Part shown: positions 2,181 to 31,079 of the stretch, in pieces
Layout of the letters: every line of letters starts with the position of its first letter
How positions within the stretch are numbered: the first letter of the stretch is position 1
Source of the DNA: an uncultured Pelagibacteraceae bacterium
Lineage (GTDB): Bacteria > Pseudomonadota > Alphaproteobacteria > Pelagibacterales > Pelagibacteraceae
Direction of reading: 5' to 3'
DNA length: 44,091 bases
Assembly (NCBI GenBank): GCA_902533585.1
Contig: CACAMG010000004.1
Coordinates: 1 to 44,091 of the forward strand
Position numbers and translations under genes: made by a program
Notes under the pieces: model-generated
What the model saw: the letters and a program-made list of their open reading frames with translations, nothing else
Databases searched by the model: none
What the model was told of the DNA's origin: nothing

Positions 2181-2683
2181 CAACAAATGTAGACAGGAAG
2201 TACCTGGAAATAAAAAGTATAAAAGATTTAATAGAAGTTAATAAACCCAGCAAAGAATGCAAAATAGATCTAGTTGATCCTCCAGATTTTCAATTAAATA
2301 GATTTTTTTATAAGCAAATCGGTAAAAAACATAGATGGATAGATAGACTTTTATGGACTGATAAAGAATGGATTAATTATATTAATAATCCAAATGTCAA
2401 AACGTATATCTTAAAAGAAAAAAAAGAACTAGTTGGTTATTTTGAAAAAATTATTAATTTTAATAACTTAGAATGTGAAATTGCATATTTTGGAATTTTA
2501 GAAAATTATTTTAATAGAAATTATGGAGGTTTTTTATTGTCAGAAGCAATTAAAAAATCTTTTATTTTAGGAATAAAAAGAGTTTGGGTGCATACCTGTT
2601 CATTAGATCATAAACATGCACTAAAAAATTATTTATCAAGAGGTATGAAAATTTTTAAATCAGAAACTATTACTGTGAATTAA
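2177..2683 (+). CDS. GNAT family N-acetyltransferase
   Basis: GTG start overlapping the HIT stop; YFGILENYFNRNYGGFLLSEAIKKSFILGIKRVWVHTCSLDHKHALKNYLSRGMKIF resembles GNAT motif A/B. Confidence 0.8.
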   Translation: MTTNVDRKYLEIKSIKDLIEVNKPSKECKIDLVDPPDFQLNRFFYKQIGKKHRWIDRLLWTDKEWINYINNPNVKTYILKEKKELVGYFEKIINFNNLECEIAYFGILENYFNRNYGGFLLSEAIKKSFILGIKRVWVHTCSLDHKHALKNYLSRGMKIFKSETITVN

Positions 2684-2685
2684 AA

Positions 2686-3243
2686 TTAATTTCTTTGAGG
2701 GAGTAAGAAAATTTTTTCTTTTATACTTTTATTTATTTCAATATCAAATATATATGTAACTGCAAGATTTTGATATATGTCTTCCATTTGCCAACCAATC
2801 AAATTGTAGGTTTTTTTATCAAAAAAAATATTTACCACATTATTTTTGTTTTCTAATGAAAAATTATAGTATTTATCATTAATAGATCTTCCTTCTAGTT
2901 TTTTTATTTCATTTATTAAGTATCTTTTATCAAGAATTATGTTAAGTTGAGTTTTTTCTATAGGATATAAGAAATATTGATTACTCATTTTACTTTTAAT
3001 AACTACTGCTTTACCATTGGAAACTAAAATTCTTTTATTTTTGGAGCTATAAGAACAATAAATTTTTTTTGGATATTTAATTATACAATTTCCTGCTTCT
3101 GTTTTCCCATCAATCGTTTGTTTAAAATTAAAACTTAAGTTATTTATTTTTTCAAAATTATATAAAATTTTTTCTTTAATTGACCCGTATGCTGGACTAT
3201 AAAAATTTATAATTAAAATTATTAAAAATAATAATTTTTTCAC
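2686..3243 (-). CDS. lolA: Outer membrane lipoprotein carrier protein LolA-like
   Basis: Signal peptide; LSFNFKQTIDGKTEAGNCIIKYPKKIYCSY resembles the LolA fold; adjacent to ftsK as in many alphaproteobacteria. Confidence 0.8.
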   Translation of the reverse strand: MKKLLFLIILIINFYSPAYGSIKEKILYNFEKINNLSFNFKQTIDGKTEAGNCIIKYPKKIYCSYSSKNKRILVSNGKAVVIKSKMSNQYFLYPIEKTQLNIILDKRYLINEIKKLEGRSINDKYYNFSLENKNNVVNIFFDKKTYNLIGWQMEDIYQNLAVTYIFDIEINKSIKEKIFLLPQRN

Positions 3244-7133: not shown

Positions 7134-7225
7134 AAAAAAAAATAATACATAATTTTTACTTTTTCAACGTTTTGATCAAACCGTGGGACACAGTTTGACT
7201 TAAATTTTAAAATTTTTATTATTGC

Positions 7226-7254
7226 TTACAATTCTAAAACCCGCTATCTATAAT
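7226..7254 (+). promoter_or_regulatory. Putative sigma70-like promoter of tRNA-Gly
   Basis: TTACAA (7226-7231), 17-nt spacer, TATAAT (7249-7254), 12 nt before the mature tRNA 5' end. Confidence 0.7.
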
Positions 7255-7266
7255 TGTTTTTTACAA

Positions 7267-7341
7267 GCGGGCATAGCTCAGTGGTAGAGCGTCTCGTTGC
7301 CAACGAGAAGGTCGTGGGTTCAAGTCCCATTGCCCGCTCCA
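7267..7341 (+). tRNA. tRNA-Gly(GCC)
   Basis: GCGGGCA/TGCCCGC acceptor stem, anticodon stem TCTCG/CGAGA with loop TTGCCAA (anticodon GCC), T-arm GTGGGTTCAAGTCCCAT, encoded CCA. Confidence 0.97.
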
Positions 7342-12752: not shown

Positions 12753-14591
12753 TTAGTGTTGTTTACCAAGAATAGTTCTACCACTTGGTACTCTAAGCTC
12801 GTCTACCATTTTCTGCGTAGCACTGTCTGGCTCTGGTGTCATTAAACTAACGACAACCATAACAACTAGACATACACTAGCTCCGATGATACCGAATCTT
12901 AAGTGGTCAATACCTAACCATGCAGGGTTACCCATAAATTTAGGATATACATAAATTAGATAAGCTGTTCCTGATGCAAGACCTGCAATCATACCTGCTA
13001 TTGCACCTTGTCTTGTTGCTCTTTTCCACCATACTCCTAGTACAAGTGGGAAGAACAATCCAGACATCGCAAAGTCGAAAGCCCAAGCAACTGCACCAAG
13101 GATACTAGTGATCCTCATTGATGCAATGTAAGCTCCAAGAGCTCCAATTACGACTAAAAGTGCACGAGCTACGATTAATCTTTTTCTTACGTCTGCTTTT
13201 GGATCAATGATTTTGAAATAAATATCATGTGATAAAGCATTTGCGATCGCAAGAACAAGACCATCAGCTGTTGACATCGCTGCAGCCATACCTCCGGCAG
13301 CAACTAATCCTGAAATTACATAAGGTAATCCAGCTACTTCTGGTGTTGATAATACAACAACGTCACCTCTCATGAACCATTCATTTAATTGAAGAATTCC
13401 GTCTCCGTTAAAGTCAGCAATGAAAGCTTGTTTTTGTGCAGTCCATGCAGAAACCCAATCAATTGCCATAACAGCAGATATTTCTTTTCCAATAATACCA
13501 GTTGGTAAATTTGGATCCATTAATGATAGTTTAGATAACGTCGCAAGCATTGGTGCTGATGTGTAAAGTAATGCAATAAAGAACAGTGACCAAGCAACTG
13601 ATTTTCTCGCAGCTTTTACACTAGGTGTTGTAAAGTATCTCATTAAAATGTGTGGTAAAGAAGCTGTTCCTACCATCATACATAAAGCTAATGAAATAAA
13701 TTTCCAAGCAGCCATTCCACCCGCAGGTACTTCAGAGTGCGGAAGTGCAATTGATTTTAATCCACCTGGAACGCCCGCAGCTTTAATATCTGCAGCAGCA
13801 TTTTTTACTAATCCAAACTGAGCTTCAAGTTCACCAAGTCTAGCAACTTCTTCTCCCAACATTAAATGTGGAAAGAATCCGTAACCACCTTTGTTACTAA
13901 TCCAGAATATTGGAAGTAGATAAGCTATAATCAATACTATGTACTGAGCAACTTGCGTCCAAGTAACTGCTCTCATTCCACCTAACATTGAACATAACAA
14001 TATACTAAATAATCCAACCCAGACTCCTAACTCAAATGGAATACCAAGTGCTCTTGCAGCAATTGTTCCTGTTGCGTTAATTTGAGCTGTCACATATGTG
14101 AAAGAAGCTAAAGTTAAAACAACTACAGCGCAGAATCTAGCTAGATTTCCACCATATCTTGTTCCAATAAAGTCTGGCACAGTATAACAACCAAATTTTC
14201 TTAAATATGGAGCTAACAATGATGAAACTAATATATAACCCCCAGTCCATCCGACCAAGAACGCCATATATGTATATCCACCAAAATAAATTCCACCTGC
14301 CATTGCTACGAACGAAGCACCTGACATCCAGTCAGCTGCAGTCGCCATACCATTGAAGACAGTTGGAACTTGTCGTCCAGCTACATAGTAAGCATCAACT
14401 TGTACAGTTCTAGATAAATACCCAATAAGAGCATATATAAAAACTGTGAAAGCTACGAACAAAATACCTATTGTTTTGGCAGTCATACCTGCTGATTCTG
14501 CAATAGCCATCAAAATGATGAATATTAAGAAACCACCAGTATATGTTCCATAAATTTTAGGTAAATTGTCAATAAATTTTCCTTTAAACAT
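12753..14591 (-). CDS. Sodium:solute symporter (SSS family, large subunit of a DUF4212-associated transporter)
   Basis: Start MFKGKFIDNLPKIYGTYTGG at 14591; YVAGRQVPTVFNGMATAADWMSGASFVAMAGGIYFGG is SSS-like, paired with a DUF4212 small subunit (ATG/TAA overlap). Confidence 0.93.
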   Translation of the reverse strand: MFKGKFIDNLPKIYGTYTGGFLIFIILMAIAESAGMTAKTIGILFVAFTVFIYALIGYLSRTVQVDAYYVAGRQVPTVFNGMATAADWMSGASFVAMAGGIYFGGYTYMAFLVGWTGGYILVSSLLAPYLRKFGCYTVPDFIGTRYGGNLARFCAVVVLTLASFTYVTAQINATGTIAARALGIPFELGVWVGLFSILLCSMLGGMRAVTWTQVAQYIVLIIAYLLPIFWISNKGGYGFFPHLMLGEEVARLGELEAQFGLVKNAAADIKAAGVPGGLKSIALPHSEVPAGGMAAWKFISLALCMMVGTASLPHILMRYFTTPSVKAARKSVAWSLFFIALLYTSAPMLATLSKLSLMDPNLPTGIIGKEISAVMAIDWVSAWTAQKQAFIADFNGDGILQLNEWFMRGDVVVLSTPEVAGLPYVISGLVAAGGMAAAMSTADGLVLAIANALSHDIYFKIIDPKADVRKRLIVARALLVVIGALGAYIASMRITSILGAVAWAFDFAMSGLFFPLVLGVWWKRATRQGAIAGMIAGLASGTAYLIYVYPKFMGNPAWLGIDHLRFGIIGASVCLVVMVVVSLMTPEPDSATQKMVDELRVPSGRTILGKQH

Positions 14592-14848
14592 TATTCGTCT
14601 CCCTTCTCGGTGAAACCACATTCCTCATCAATTTTTTCTTGTCTATTTGCAGACCAAAAAAGAATTATTACAAATGCAACGATAGATCCCTGTGCACACA
14701 TATAGTATGCTAGCGGATATCCAAGAAAACTTGCTGAGTTGAGGCTCGAACCAAACATGAAGATCAAATAACCGAAAAAGAACCAAAGTAGCAGAGTAAT
14801 AATCATCTGGCTTTTAGTTTTTTCCCAGTGTTTTTCCTTGTTTGACAT
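14591..14848 (-). CDS. DUF4212 family symporter small subunit
   Basis: 85 aa; HWEKTKSQMIITLLLWFFFGYLIFMFGSSLN...GYPLAYYMCAQGSIVAFVIILFW; strong SD (GGGAGGG on minus strand) before the ATG. Confidence 0.9.
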   Translation of the reverse strand: MSNKEKHWEKTKSQMIITLLLWFFFGYLIFMFGSSLNSASFLGYPLAYYMCAQGSIVAFVIILFWSANRQEKIDEECGFTEKGDE

Positions 14849-22825: not shown

Positions 22826-23668
22826 ATGATACTAATAGATGGAAAAAAAGTAGCAGCTGAACTCAGAGAAGAGCTCAAACAAGAAGTTTCTAAACTAAAA
22901 TCTAAAATAAATAAAGTACCTGGCTTAACCGTAATTTTAATTGGAGAATTGGCTCCAAGCAAAATTTATGTCAAAATGAAAGAAAAAGCTGCTAACGAAG
23001 TGGGTCTAAAATCTGAGGTAATAAGATATCCAGAAAATGTTGAAGAAAAAACAATTTTAGAAAAAATAAATAAATTGAACGTTGACAAGTCAGTTTCTGG
23101 GATTCTGGTTCAGCTACCTTTGCCAAAACATATTGACAAACAAAAAGTGATTGAGACCATATCCCCAAAAAAAGATGTTGATGGTTTTCATCCTATAAAT
23201 GTTGGAAATTTATCCTCAGGTTATGATAGTTGTATACCTTGCACTCCACTTGGCTGTTATCTTTTACTAAAAAATTTTGAAAAAAATTTAACTGGAAAAA
23301 AAGCTGTAGTTATTGGTAGATCAAATTTAAATGGAAAACCCATGACACAGTTACTTCTTAAAGAAAATTGTACAGTAACCATCACTCATTCAAAAACTAA
23401 GGATTTAAAAGGAGAATGTTTAAAAGCTGATATTATTATTGCTGCCGTAGGTATTCCAAAATTAGTTAAAGGAGATTGGGTTAAAAAAGATGCGATTGTA
23501 ATTGATGTTGGTATTAATAAAACAGACGATGGTATCGTTGGTGATGTTGAATTTGATGAAGTTTCAAAAATTGCAAAAGCAATAACACCCGTTCCAGGCG
23601 GTGTAGGACCAATGACTATTGCATGTCTATTAAAAAATACTATTGAGTGTTTTAAAAAAAATATTTAA
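22826..23668 (+). CDS. folD: Methylenetetrahydrofolate dehydrogenase/cyclohydrolase
   Basis: SGILVQLPLPKHID, KDVDGFHPINVG, VIGRSNLNGKPMTQLLL, PVPGGVGPMTIACLL. Confidence 0.98.
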   Translation: MILIDGKKVAAELREELKQEVSKLKSKINKVPGLTVILIGELAPSKIYVKMKEKAANEVGLKSEVIRYPENVEEKTILEKINKLNVDKSVSGILVQLPLPKHIDKQKVIETISPKKDVDGFHPINVGNLSSGYDSCIPCTPLGCYLLLKNFEKNLTGKKAVVIGRSNLNGKPMTQLLLKENCTVTITHSKTKDLKGECLKADIIIAAVGIPKLVKGDWVKKDAIVIDVGINKTDDGIVGDVEFDEVSKIAKAITPVPGGVGPMTIACLLKNTIECFKKNI

Positions 23669-23674
23669 GCCAGT

Positions 23675-25351
23675 TTACAAATTTAATAAAAAATCTTCAA
23701 TTTCATTTAAAAAATTGCTATTTTCATAAAGAAATTTATCTGCGGAATTTTGGAGATTTTTTTTATTATCAAGAATATTTTTTTCATTATAATTAGCTAA
23801 CTCTATAGCTTTAGAAACATATTCATCTATAGAATTAACTATAGGAGGATTATCTATTTTCATTTGTTTATATGCACCATAAACAATTCTACTTTTCATA
23901 TATTCAGATGGCAATGAAACTGTAGGTGTTCCATAAAACATAGATTCATGAAAACTATTACCTGAACCAAAATATAGTGGGTCTAAAAGTACCGAAGCTT
24001 TACCACAAAAATTTATCCAATTTTCGTTAGTCATTTGGTCTACAAAAATAATTTTATCCATATTTGAAACAACATTTTTTTTTAATCTGGCACTAAGTTT
24101 TTTATAAAGAGTATAATTTTTATCTTTGACAAAATATATTTTAGCAGCAGGGTCTTTTTCTAAAATTTTTTTAATTATTTGATCAAAATCAGGATGAATT
24201 TTAACTAATGTTTGAGAGCATGAATAAATATTTTTTTGACAAATTTCTTCATCAGATAAAATATTATAAATTTTTGGTTTATAATAATACATAGGTAAAT
24301 TGTTAAATAAAACTAACTTTTCAGAGTATTTTTCTTGAGCGTCATTAGTTTCAATTAGTTTTGAAGATAAAAAATAATCTATTTTAGAATTTCCTGTTGT
24401 TTCTGGATGACCCCAAGATGTTATCTGAAATTTTGCTAGTCTTAAAAAAGTTAAAAAATATAGTTGATTTGACATTCCTATATCTGGATAAAAAATGATA
24501 TCCAAACCAGAATTTTTAATAATTTTAATTTTTTCATTAAATTTTTTTGGTAAAATAATATTTTTAAAATCTGATTTAATTTCTTCTTCCAGATAATTTG
24601 AAAAATCTTGACTTTTTTTAGTAGTTTCTAAATGAAATACATTAACTTCAAATTTTTCTCTATTTAATTTCAAAATTAAACCTTTAAAAAGTTTTGAAAT
24701 TGTATGATTGCTAAAAAATTCTGAAATAAATCCAATTTTAACTCTTCTATTTTTATTTTTGTTAATAAAATCGTTTTGATTAAGAACTGGGTAAATTTTT
24801 TTAAAAAAAGTATTAAATTTTTTATTTAAATTTAAATTATCAAACTGATCATAAGAATAGTAAAATGTTGGGCAATCTATTACTTCTTTATCAATATCAA
24901 GATTTGCTACTTCTTCAGATTCATTAAATTTATCAATAAAATTTTCTATTCTATTTCTACGACTTACTATTTCTTTATTATCAATGTTTATTTGAGGAAA
25001 AATTAAATACCTAATAAAATTATATCTTTTATTAAGGTTAACTTCTTTTATTCCTAAATTAATAAATTCTTCAAGTTCATCCATTTTATCTTGTTCCTTA
25101 AGAACTTTGAATAAAAAATTGAAAATTCTTATGTCTTTTTTTCCTAATTTAATAATTTTTTTTAGAGTATTTTCTGCCTCAGAATACATTTTGAGTTCGT
25201 GATAAACTAAAGATAAATTTTCTAGTATAGAAAAATTTTTAGAATTATTATTTAATACTTTTTCAAAAATTTCTTTTGCTTTTGAAAAATTTTTGTTTTT
25301 ATAATTTTCTACACCTTTTTTAAATAATTCTTGATCTGAAATTTCATTCAT
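23675..25351 (-). CDS. TPR + GT41-like (SPINDLY/O-GlcNAc transferase-type) glycosyltransferase
   Basis: N-terminal TPR-like helices; RVKIGFISEFFSNHTISKLFKG, QITSWGHPETTGNSKIDYFLSS, PLYFGSGNSFHESMFYGTPTVSLPSEYMKSR. Confidence 0.82.
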   Translation of the reverse strand: MNEISDQELFKKGVENYKNKNFSKAKEIFEKVLNNNSKNFSILENLSLVYHELKMYSEAENTLKKIIKLGKKDIRIFNFLFKVLKEQDKMDELEEFINLGIKEVNLNKRYNFIRYLIFPQINIDNKEIVSRRNRIENFIDKFNESEEVANLDIDKEVIDCPTFYYSYDQFDNLNLNKKFNTFFKKIYPVLNQNDFINKNKNRRVKIGFISEFFSNHTISKLFKGLILKLNREKFEVNVFHLETTKKSQDFSNYLEEEIKSDFKNIILPKKFNEKIKIIKNSGLDIIFYPDIGMSNQLYFLTFLRLAKFQITSWGHPETTGNSKIDYFLSSKLIETNDAQEKYSEKLVLFNNLPMYYYKPKIYNILSDEEICQKNIYSCSQTLVKIHPDFDQIIKKILEKDPAAKIYFVKDKNYTLYKKLSARLKKNVVSNMDKIIFVDQMTNENWINFCGKASVLLDPLYFGSGNSFHESMFYGTPTVSLPSEYMKSRIVYGAYKQMKIDNPPIVNSIDEYVSKAIELANYNEKNILDNKKNLQNSADKFLYENSNFLNEIEDFLLNL

Positions 25352-29807: not shown

Positions 29808-29885
29808 AGAATCATATTAACAGATTAAATTAACAATGAAATTTTTTTATTGATTTTTTTATTTAAATATTCATACTTAATAACA

Positions 29886-30206
29886 GTGAGCATTCAAAAA
29901 GCAAAATTTTCAATCGGAGATGTTGTAAAGCATAAACACTTTGACTTTAGAGGTGTAATTTATGATGTTGATTTTGAATTTAATAATTCTGAAGAATGGT
30001 ATCAATCTATACCTAAAAATGTGAGACCAAGAAAAGACCAACCTTTTTATCATTTGCTTGCAGAGAATGATGACGTTACTTATGAGGCATATGTATCTGA
30101 GCAAAATCTTTTGAGTGACGATTCTGACGAACCAATAAAACATCCTTTAATTAACGAAATTTTTTCGGGAAAAAAAGGATCTAGTTACTTTAAGCTTTCA
30201 AATTAG
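29886..30206 (+). CDS. hspQ: Heat shock protein HspQ / YccV-like hemimethylated-DNA-binding family
   Basis: AKFSIGDVVKHKHFDFRGVIYDVDFEFNNSEEWYQSIPKNVRPRKDQPFYHLLAE; GTG start at 29886 preferred over the ORF-track start. Confidence 0.88.
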   Translation: MSIQKAKFSIGDVVKHKHFDFRGVIYDVDFEFNNSEEWYQSIPKNVRPRKDQPFYHLLAENDDVTYEAYVSEQNLLSDDSDEPIKHPLINEIFSGKKGSSYFKLSN

Positions 30207-30244
30207 AAGTCGCGACAATATTTAAACACAATTTATTCAAATCT

Positions 30245-30273
30245 TAGACATAAGTATCCTTTATATATTTAAT
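30245..30273 (+). promoter_or_regulatory. Putative sigma70-like promoter between hspQ and ccmC
   Basis: TAGACA (30245-30250), 17-nt spacer, TTTAAT (30268-30273); each box 5/6 match to consensus. Confidence 0.5.
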
Positions 30274-30274
30274 T

Positions 30275-30328
30275 AAACCAAGGACACCTTATCATTCCTT
30301 AATTTATCTCCCTCAGTGTCCTTGGTTT
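30275..30328. other. 13-bp perfect inverted repeat (hairpin or dyad operator)
   Basis: AAACCAAGGACAC (30275-30287) and GTGTCCTTGGTTT (30316-30328) separated by 28 nt. Confidence 0.9.
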
Positions 30329-30371
30329 GATTTCCTTTAAAATAAAATAATTTAATATATAAAATTCCTAA

Positions 30372-31079
30372 ATGTTAAATTACTTCGATCCAAATAAAAT
30401 TTTTGCTTTTACTTCAAGGGCTCCCAAATATGTATTTTTTATTTTTGTAATAACATTAACCGTAGGTTTATTAGAAGCTTTAGTATTGTCTCCAGAAGAT
30501 TATATTCAAAGTGATTCAGTAAGAATAATGTATGTACATGTTCCCTCGGCCTGGATATCTCTTGGAATTTTTACATTAATTGCAATTTTATCTTTTGGTA
30601 GTTTATTTTTTAAAAATAAAAATTTTCCTATTATATCAAAAAGTTTAGCTCCATCTGGTTTAGTTTTTAATATCATAGCATTAGTAACTGGTTCTATCTG
30701 GGGAAAGCCCACTTGGGGCACCTGGTGGGCTTGGGATGCAAGAATAACTTCAATGTTAATATTAGCATTTTTTTATTTAATATATATTTTAGCGTGGAGA
30801 GTTTTTGAAAAAGAAGAAATAAAAATTAAAGTTTCATCAATTATTGCTATATTAGGTTTAGTCAATATTCCAATAATTAAATATTCAGTTGATTGGTGGT
30901 CAACTTTACATCAACCTTCATCCGTAAATTTACTAAGTAAAACTTCGATTGATCAATCAATGTTGGTTCCTCTAGCTATTATGACTGCGGCATTTGCACT
31001 TTTTTCATTTTTGATATTTTTAATGAAATATAATACAGAATTGATAAAACTAAAAAATAAAGGACTAGATAGACTATGA
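30372..31079 (+). CDS. ccmC: Cytochrome c biogenesis heme exporter protein CcmC
   Basis: MYVHVPSAWISLG...WGKPTWGTWWAWDARITSMLIL WWD-type motif. Confidence 0.96.
   Translation: MLNYFDPNKIFAFTSRAPKYVFFIFVITLTVGLLEALVLSPEDYIQSDSVRIMYVHVPSAWISLGIFTLIAILSFGSLFFKNKNFPIISKSLAPSGLVFNIIALVTGSIWGKPTWGTWWAWDARITSMLILAFFYLIYILAWRVFEKEEIKIKVSSIIAILGLVNIPIIKYSVDWWSTLHQPSSVNLLSKTSIDQSMLVPLAIMTAAFALFSFLIFLMKYNTELIKLKNKGLDRL

Follow-up and report, generated by a model that had tools for sequence, protein, structure and literature searches.

A conserved RNA hairpin between hspQ and ccmC in Pelagibacteraceae, with a C-rich loop that may pair with other mRNAs

RNAs with anti-Shine-Dalgarno (aSD) seeds have been described in the α-proteobacterium Sinorhizobium meliloti, where AbcR1 and AbcR2 (alpha-r15 sRNAs) and NfeR1 carry the seeds CUCCUCCC (in a 5' hairpin loop) and UUCCCCUC, and AbcR1/2 act on transporter mRNAs (PMC8844928). 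In Rhodobacter sphaeroides, the small stress RNAs CcsR1-4 are cut from a longer operon transcript (PMC10253847). For SAR11, Meyer et al. 2009 reported leader motifs of rpsB, rpsL and ffh and SAM-V, together with rhtB, pntA, bablM and SAR11_0636 elements (PMC2704228). In this study, we found that the gap between hspQ and ccmC of Pelagibacter holds a further hairpin element, which resembles each of these in part. Like AbcR1/2, it places an unpaired C-rich anti-Shine-Dalgarno seed, here a predicted one, in a hairpin loop of an alphaproteobacterial RNA. However, AbcR1 and AbcR2 are multi-hairpin RNAs with a Rho-independent terminator, whereas the SAR11 element is one long-looped hairpin, present in single copy, with no terminator seen, and whereas AbcR works with Hfq, the SAR11 element occurs in genomes where Hfq was not found. 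Unlike AbcR and NfeR1, it is fused to the ccm leader, and it has no detectable Rfam homology. Thus it is at most by analogy that the SAR11 element may be said to work like the aSD RNAs. The CcsR RNAs are four in tandem, lying between an upstream DUF1127 gene and a terminator, in contrast to the SAR11 element, which is single, at the 5' end, and beside hspQ and ccmC. The motifs of Meyer et al. are likewise short conserved RNAs in SAR11 intergenic regions, and those of ffh and rhtB are also single hairpins (PMC2704228).

The survey of Meyer et al. has no motif ahead of ccmC and does not mention SAR11_0287 (PMC2704228). It was limited to regions with a GC content of 26% or more (PMC2704228); the hspQ-ccmC gap has 24.8%, and about one third of the Pelagibacter relatives have less than 26% GC over the 165 nt before ccmC. 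The main text of the HIMB5 survey, its Table S1 aside, mentions neither ccm nor hspQ (PMC6429828). The first-pass annotation had not recognised a known RNA family in the gap, and our Rfam 15 search agrees, as it returned only a tRNA in the window, with no notable sub-threshold match there and none in the loci of four other genera. The element is best classed as a new family within a known kind of RNA, small hairpin leaders or aSD RNAs.

The window, by which we mean the whole stretch of 44,091 nt that was analysed, belongs to a contig (G000:C4) of a Pelagibacter (SAR11) genome. Its ccm operon, for cytochrome c maturation, continues downstream of ccmC with a ccmD-like gene, ccmE, ccmF, a thioredoxin-like gene, and ccmH. 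The 165-nt gap between hspQ and ccmC (30207-30371) had been singled out as the longest non-coding interval of the window, and this proved correct: a gap of 270 nt (1545-1814) is longer but coding (hisE-like), and one of 163 nt (7134-7296) overlaps a tRNA. A replication origin or terminus was ruled out by GC skew. The perfect 13-bp inverted repeat with a 28-nt spacer that had drawn attention to the gap (AAACCAAGGACAC at 30275-30287 and GTGTCCTTGGTTT at 30316-30328) is present as described, and the helix extends to 17 bp when one G-U pair is allowed (Table 1). The fold energy is -26.2 kcal/mol (z = -5.2), a value equalled by none of 200 shuffles, and the repeat is the only perfect 13-mer inverted repeat in the window (at least 5 G/C, spacer of at most 60), against 0.017 expected from first-order Markov windows.

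Table 1. Features of the hspQ-ccmC region, in window coordinates
Feature	Position	Strand	Remarks
hspQ (Pfam YccV-like)	29850..30206	+	upstream neighbour; maximal ORF, conserved protein starts near 29889
Conserved promoter-like block	30209..30252	+	Pelagibacter consensus CAttaTT.aAaCACAtTTagcTCAAAtCTt.G.CAtA; ends in TAGACA
Likely -10	30262..30269	+	TATATA 30262-30267 or TATATT 30264-30269
5' arm of RNA hairpin (AATTAAACCAAGGACAC)	30271..30287	+	folding, covariation
28-nt loop	30288..30315	+	fold; loops 17-38 nt across 118 distinct hairpins
First pyrimidine run of loop	30296..30301	+	UUCCUU in window, often UCCCUU elsewhere
Conserved exposed loop motif UUAUCUCCCUC (core CUCCC)	30304..30314	+	conserved; predicted unpaired
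3' arm of RNA hairpin (GTGTCCTTGGTTTGATT)	30316..30332	+	folding, covariation
Remaining 5' leader to ccmC	30333..30371	+	rich in A+T and poorly conserved in sequence; 28-56 nt long in relatives
ccmC (Pfam Cytochrom_C_asm)	30372..31079	+	ccm operon gene 1; always next downstream

The element is a structured RNA conserved through, and specific to, Pelagibacteraceae. All 30 Pelagibacter ccmC loci read first have the hairpin at the same position with hspQ upstream, and a covariance model built from 23 of them matched the element in 153 of 201 Pelagibacter genomes; ccmC was found in 154. Among the genomes without the element, six were checked for ccmC and gave no real match (one spurious match contained stops), and 12 were checked for hspQ, which was also absent. 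Since neither neighbour matched, it is the whole locus that is missing from these assemblies. About 12 fairly complete Pelagibacter assemblies (86-97%; G237, G257, G267, G305, and others) jointly lack hspQ, the element and ccmC; either the assemblies have a gap there or the locus has been lost. The element has no paralogues and occurs in single copy, the second matches being the opposite strand of the same palindrome (~30-35 bits versus 57-82). A copy of the element in phage was searched for and none was found. The ortholog comparison covers ~800 kb of genome G209.

Beyond Pelagibacter, the hspQ-ccmC gap of four other Pelagibacteraceae genera holds a hairpin of the same architecture but with different stems, GTCCAGTTTGAAG (g2), TACCTAACTGAG (g3), TGTCTGGTTTGGAG (g4), and GCCTAATTGAGAATT (g5), and in each of the four CUCCC lies in the loop, close to the 3' arm. 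In the g5 genome G470, a single contig (G470:C12) gave two equal-scoring ccmC matches on opposite strands (2520-3212 and 23019-23711), either an assembly duplication or a real second copy. The hairpin was not found in another family (f2), where ccmC follows a different gene, whose sequence and position suggest ccmB; weak matches in this family were discarded as apparent coding sequence (racemase-like). In a class-wide sample of 385 genomes only Pelagibacter sequences matched. One of these matches lies on a contig from a genome of another alphaproteobacterial family (G631:C48, locus L353), but the contig carries a Pelagibacter-like hspQ-ccmC pair (ccmC 76% and hspQ 88% identical) and is probably a binning error. 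Because the class-wide model at the chosen threshold missed both g2 genomes, divergent copies elsewhere are possible.

Perfect arms beside a promoter could belong to a DNA site as well as to an RNA, and the first-pass annotation had offered both a palindromic operator over the -10/start region of the ccm operon and a hairpin in the 5' UTR of ccmC whose loop is rich in pyrimidines. Alignment of the gap in relatives and examination of covarying pairs, which had been proposed as the way to tell them apart, came out in favour of RNA. Within Pelagibacter (23 sequences), 98.3% of cells pair and changes on both sides are seen at 10 of 15 pairs; across five genera (25 representatives), 98.1% are paired, with both-side changes at 10 of 11 pairs. 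The five-genus set contains 58 double changes versus a shuffle mean of 17, none of 500 shuffles reached the covariation score, and the pairing collapses when the partner is slid by 1. RNAalifold recovers the same helix unaided. Together with synteny, this covariation upholds the 5' UTR hairpin. The stem sequences themselves are almost wholly different between genera, so that what is kept is the complementarity and not the arm sequence, contrary to what would be required if a regulator of the ccm promoter bound the arms as half-sites. The mismatches point the same way. When pairs were assigned from the invariant CAAG/CTTG anchor, the 71 distinct elements of Pelagibacter comprised 809 Watson-Crick cells, 113 G-U, no A-C, and 1 other; an earlier count from the hairpin-finder set was biased by the finder's scoring and was set aside for this one. 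A G-U pair reads as A-C on the complementary strand, and the asymmetry therefore places selection on the + strand, the sense strand of ccmC. The element is thus almost certainly a + strand RNA hairpin.

The promoter-like block upstream of the hairpin carries ~44 bits over 48 columns (149 distinct sequences), and it occurs once in the complete genome G213 (56.4 bits, the next match 3.7). A TA at the place of the likely -10 is conserved in both the Pelagibacter and the other-genus sets, and from this -10 transcription would start near 30274-30276, at the hairpin or slightly upstream of it. The pair TAGACA-17 nt-TTTAAT that had been read as the promoter is literally present (30245-30250 and 30268-30273) but is absent from the consensus-scan list; TAGACA is only the end of the longer block, and TTTAAT is not the conserved -10. 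The distance from block to hairpin is 17-29 nt, usually 23-29 nt, and 45-46 nt in five loci that have ~20 extra nt. Such variable spacing fits an RNA better than an operator. The palindromic arms do adjoin a promoter, and a protein may bind the conserved block upstream of them, but with arms that change by compensation, tolerate G-U but never A-C, and stand at no fixed distance from the promoter block, we give an operator formed by the arms next to no chance.

A strong hairpin after a stop codon also recalls an intrinsic terminator of hspQ, as had been suggested for the gap, or a bidirectional one. However, in 189 of 207 loci the 15 nt after the stem contain no run of five T, the opposite strand lacks a matching tract in 201 of 207, the loops are long (28 nt here), and the terminator scan called none. 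The terminator reading is therefore highly improbable. As no terminator lies between the hairpin and ccmC, read-through into ccmC is likely, and a small RNA processed from the leader is possible.

In contrast to the stems, the loop motif is kept across genera. CUCCC or CUUCCC is present in 113 of 118 distinct loops, most commonly in the form UUAUCUCCCUC; the remaining five have AUCCC/UUCCC (four) or CUCAC (one). The motif mostly starts 7-10 nt before the 3' arm and is predicted to be unpaired with a probability of 0.7-1.0, and a second CCC lies 5' of it in 52 of the 118 loops. The loop of G213 itself is without CUCCC (AUAUCCCUCU). A conserved complement to the loop was sought in the leader and around ccmC and was not found, which counts against a cis pseudoknot, and between the hairpin and the AUG we found no conserved ribosome-binding site, complement or second structure.

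A stem that did no more than guard the ccm mRNA against RNase E/RppH at its 5' end, like the ompA leader, would agree with the position of the hairpin close to the inferred transcription start. However, such a stabiliser does not need the loop motif, which is nevertheless kept where stems differ, and in the five loci with extra nucleotides the base of the hairpin is 45-46 nt from the promoter block; we regard this explanation as quite unlikely. The reading that we prefer, at a probability of roughly 0.4, is that the element forms the 5' leader of the ccm operon RNA and that its anti-Shine-Dalgarno-like loop base-pairs with other mRNAs, transporter mRNAs being the probable ones. In this scenario, the dedicated conserved promoter would start the transcript at or just before the hairpin, and the transcript would probably continue into ccmCDEFGH. 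The sole job of the stem would be to present a loop with the unpaired C-rich seed CUCCC(U) on its 3' side, which would pair with AGGGAG/GGAGA-type ribosome-binding sites of other mRNAs. The best candidate targets would be highly expressed transporters, e.g. a sodium:solute symporter and a TRAP binding protein, and the acting form could be either part of the ccm mRNA or a cleaved 5'UTR-derived small RNA. What the analysis establishes is the conservation, structure, strand and exposed loop of the element, its promoter block, its restriction to the family and its synteny; where the transcript starts, its read-through and processing, what it targets and whether it raises or lowers their expression are inferred.

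Target predictions speak both for and against trans pairing of this kind, by which AbcR RNAs repress transporter mRNAs at the ribosome-binding site. Within the window, the prediction puts a sodium:solute symporter gene (14591), a TRAP-type gene (40955), and a small membrane gene (14848) in the top three places. The symporter site reaches -13.6 kcal/mol with seven perfect pairs over AGGGAGA, and the summed energy of the three was matched by 4 of 200 shuffled seeds. In G213, the canonical seed ranks the symporter 1st and the TRAP gene 9th of 1437 genes; with the genome's own degenerate loop the symporter drops to rank 10. Genome-wide, target energies are barely above those of shuffled pyrimidine seeds (3/40, 3/60, and 5/60), so that the enrichment is weak and not discriminating; strong Shine-Dalgarno sequences mark highly expressed genes anyway. 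In the window, the small membrane protein gene stands ahead of the symporter gene on the - strand (12753-14848), and the two have unusually strong ribosome-binding sites, AGGGAGGGA and AAGGGAGA, complementary to the hairpin loop. Over the region -19 to -4 of the 1437 predicted genes of G213, TATAA is ~2-fold enriched directly ahead of the start codon, a pattern that would follow if leaderless or very short-leadered mRNAs are common in SAR11. In the same region AGGAG/GGGAG/GGAGA is ~5-fold enriched, yet in few genes.

Alternatively, the element may act in cis, with a protein (e.g. a cold-shock-type RNA-binding protein) or another RNA binding the C-rich loop and setting the stability or translation of ccmC and later genes. 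We consider this the main rival reading, though somewhat short of an even chance. The hairpin is always directly upstream of ccmC, 28-56 nt from its start, is absent in family f2, where ccmC appears to follow ccmB, and is not separated from ccmC by a terminator. In addition, Hfq (TIGR02383) was found in none of seven SAR11 genomes (G000, G213, G211, G012, G209, G201, and G340), six of them complete or nearly so, in a search whose controls in E. coli and Caulobacter were positive, a result that counts against trans pairing as well. It has been reported that the mRNA of ccmC (SAR11_0287) in stationary phase HTCC1062 is up 10.35-fold under sulfur limitation and 2.18-fold in the control (PMC5069961). 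However, linkage to ccmC alone is weak evidence for a cis role, because the hspQ-ccmC order is kept family-wide anyway, and linkage and reported induction fit either reading, trans or cis. Against a cis role stands the stretch from hairpin to AUG with nothing conserved in it. The loop is rich in C, its C-run varies, and the leader has no conserved partner for it; for these reasons we place trans pairing slightly ahead of cis, by a small margin.

SAR11 bacteria are among the most abundant bacterial groups and have few transcription factors, and post-transcriptional control is thought to be unusually important in them. The hairpin is a further RNA, conserved across the family and missing from Rfam 15, and it stands at an operon for which strong induction of the first gene in sulfur-starved stationary phase has been reported with no known regulator. 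It shows that surveys filtered on GC content and length can miss elements of this kind. It also offers for testing a concrete 60-nt element with a defined loop seed and a promoter block. The element could explain how the ccm pathway is controlled in the stripped-down cells of SAR11. It is tempting, if doubtful, to go further and speculate that it is an Hfq-independent anti-Shine-Dalgarno riboregulator in the ccm leader, such that when ccm transcription rises (e.g. on sulfur starvation) the CUCCC loop would lower the translation of abundant transporters. If true, this riboregulator would link the uptake of nutrients to the assembly of the respiratory chain in bacteria that have few transcription factors.
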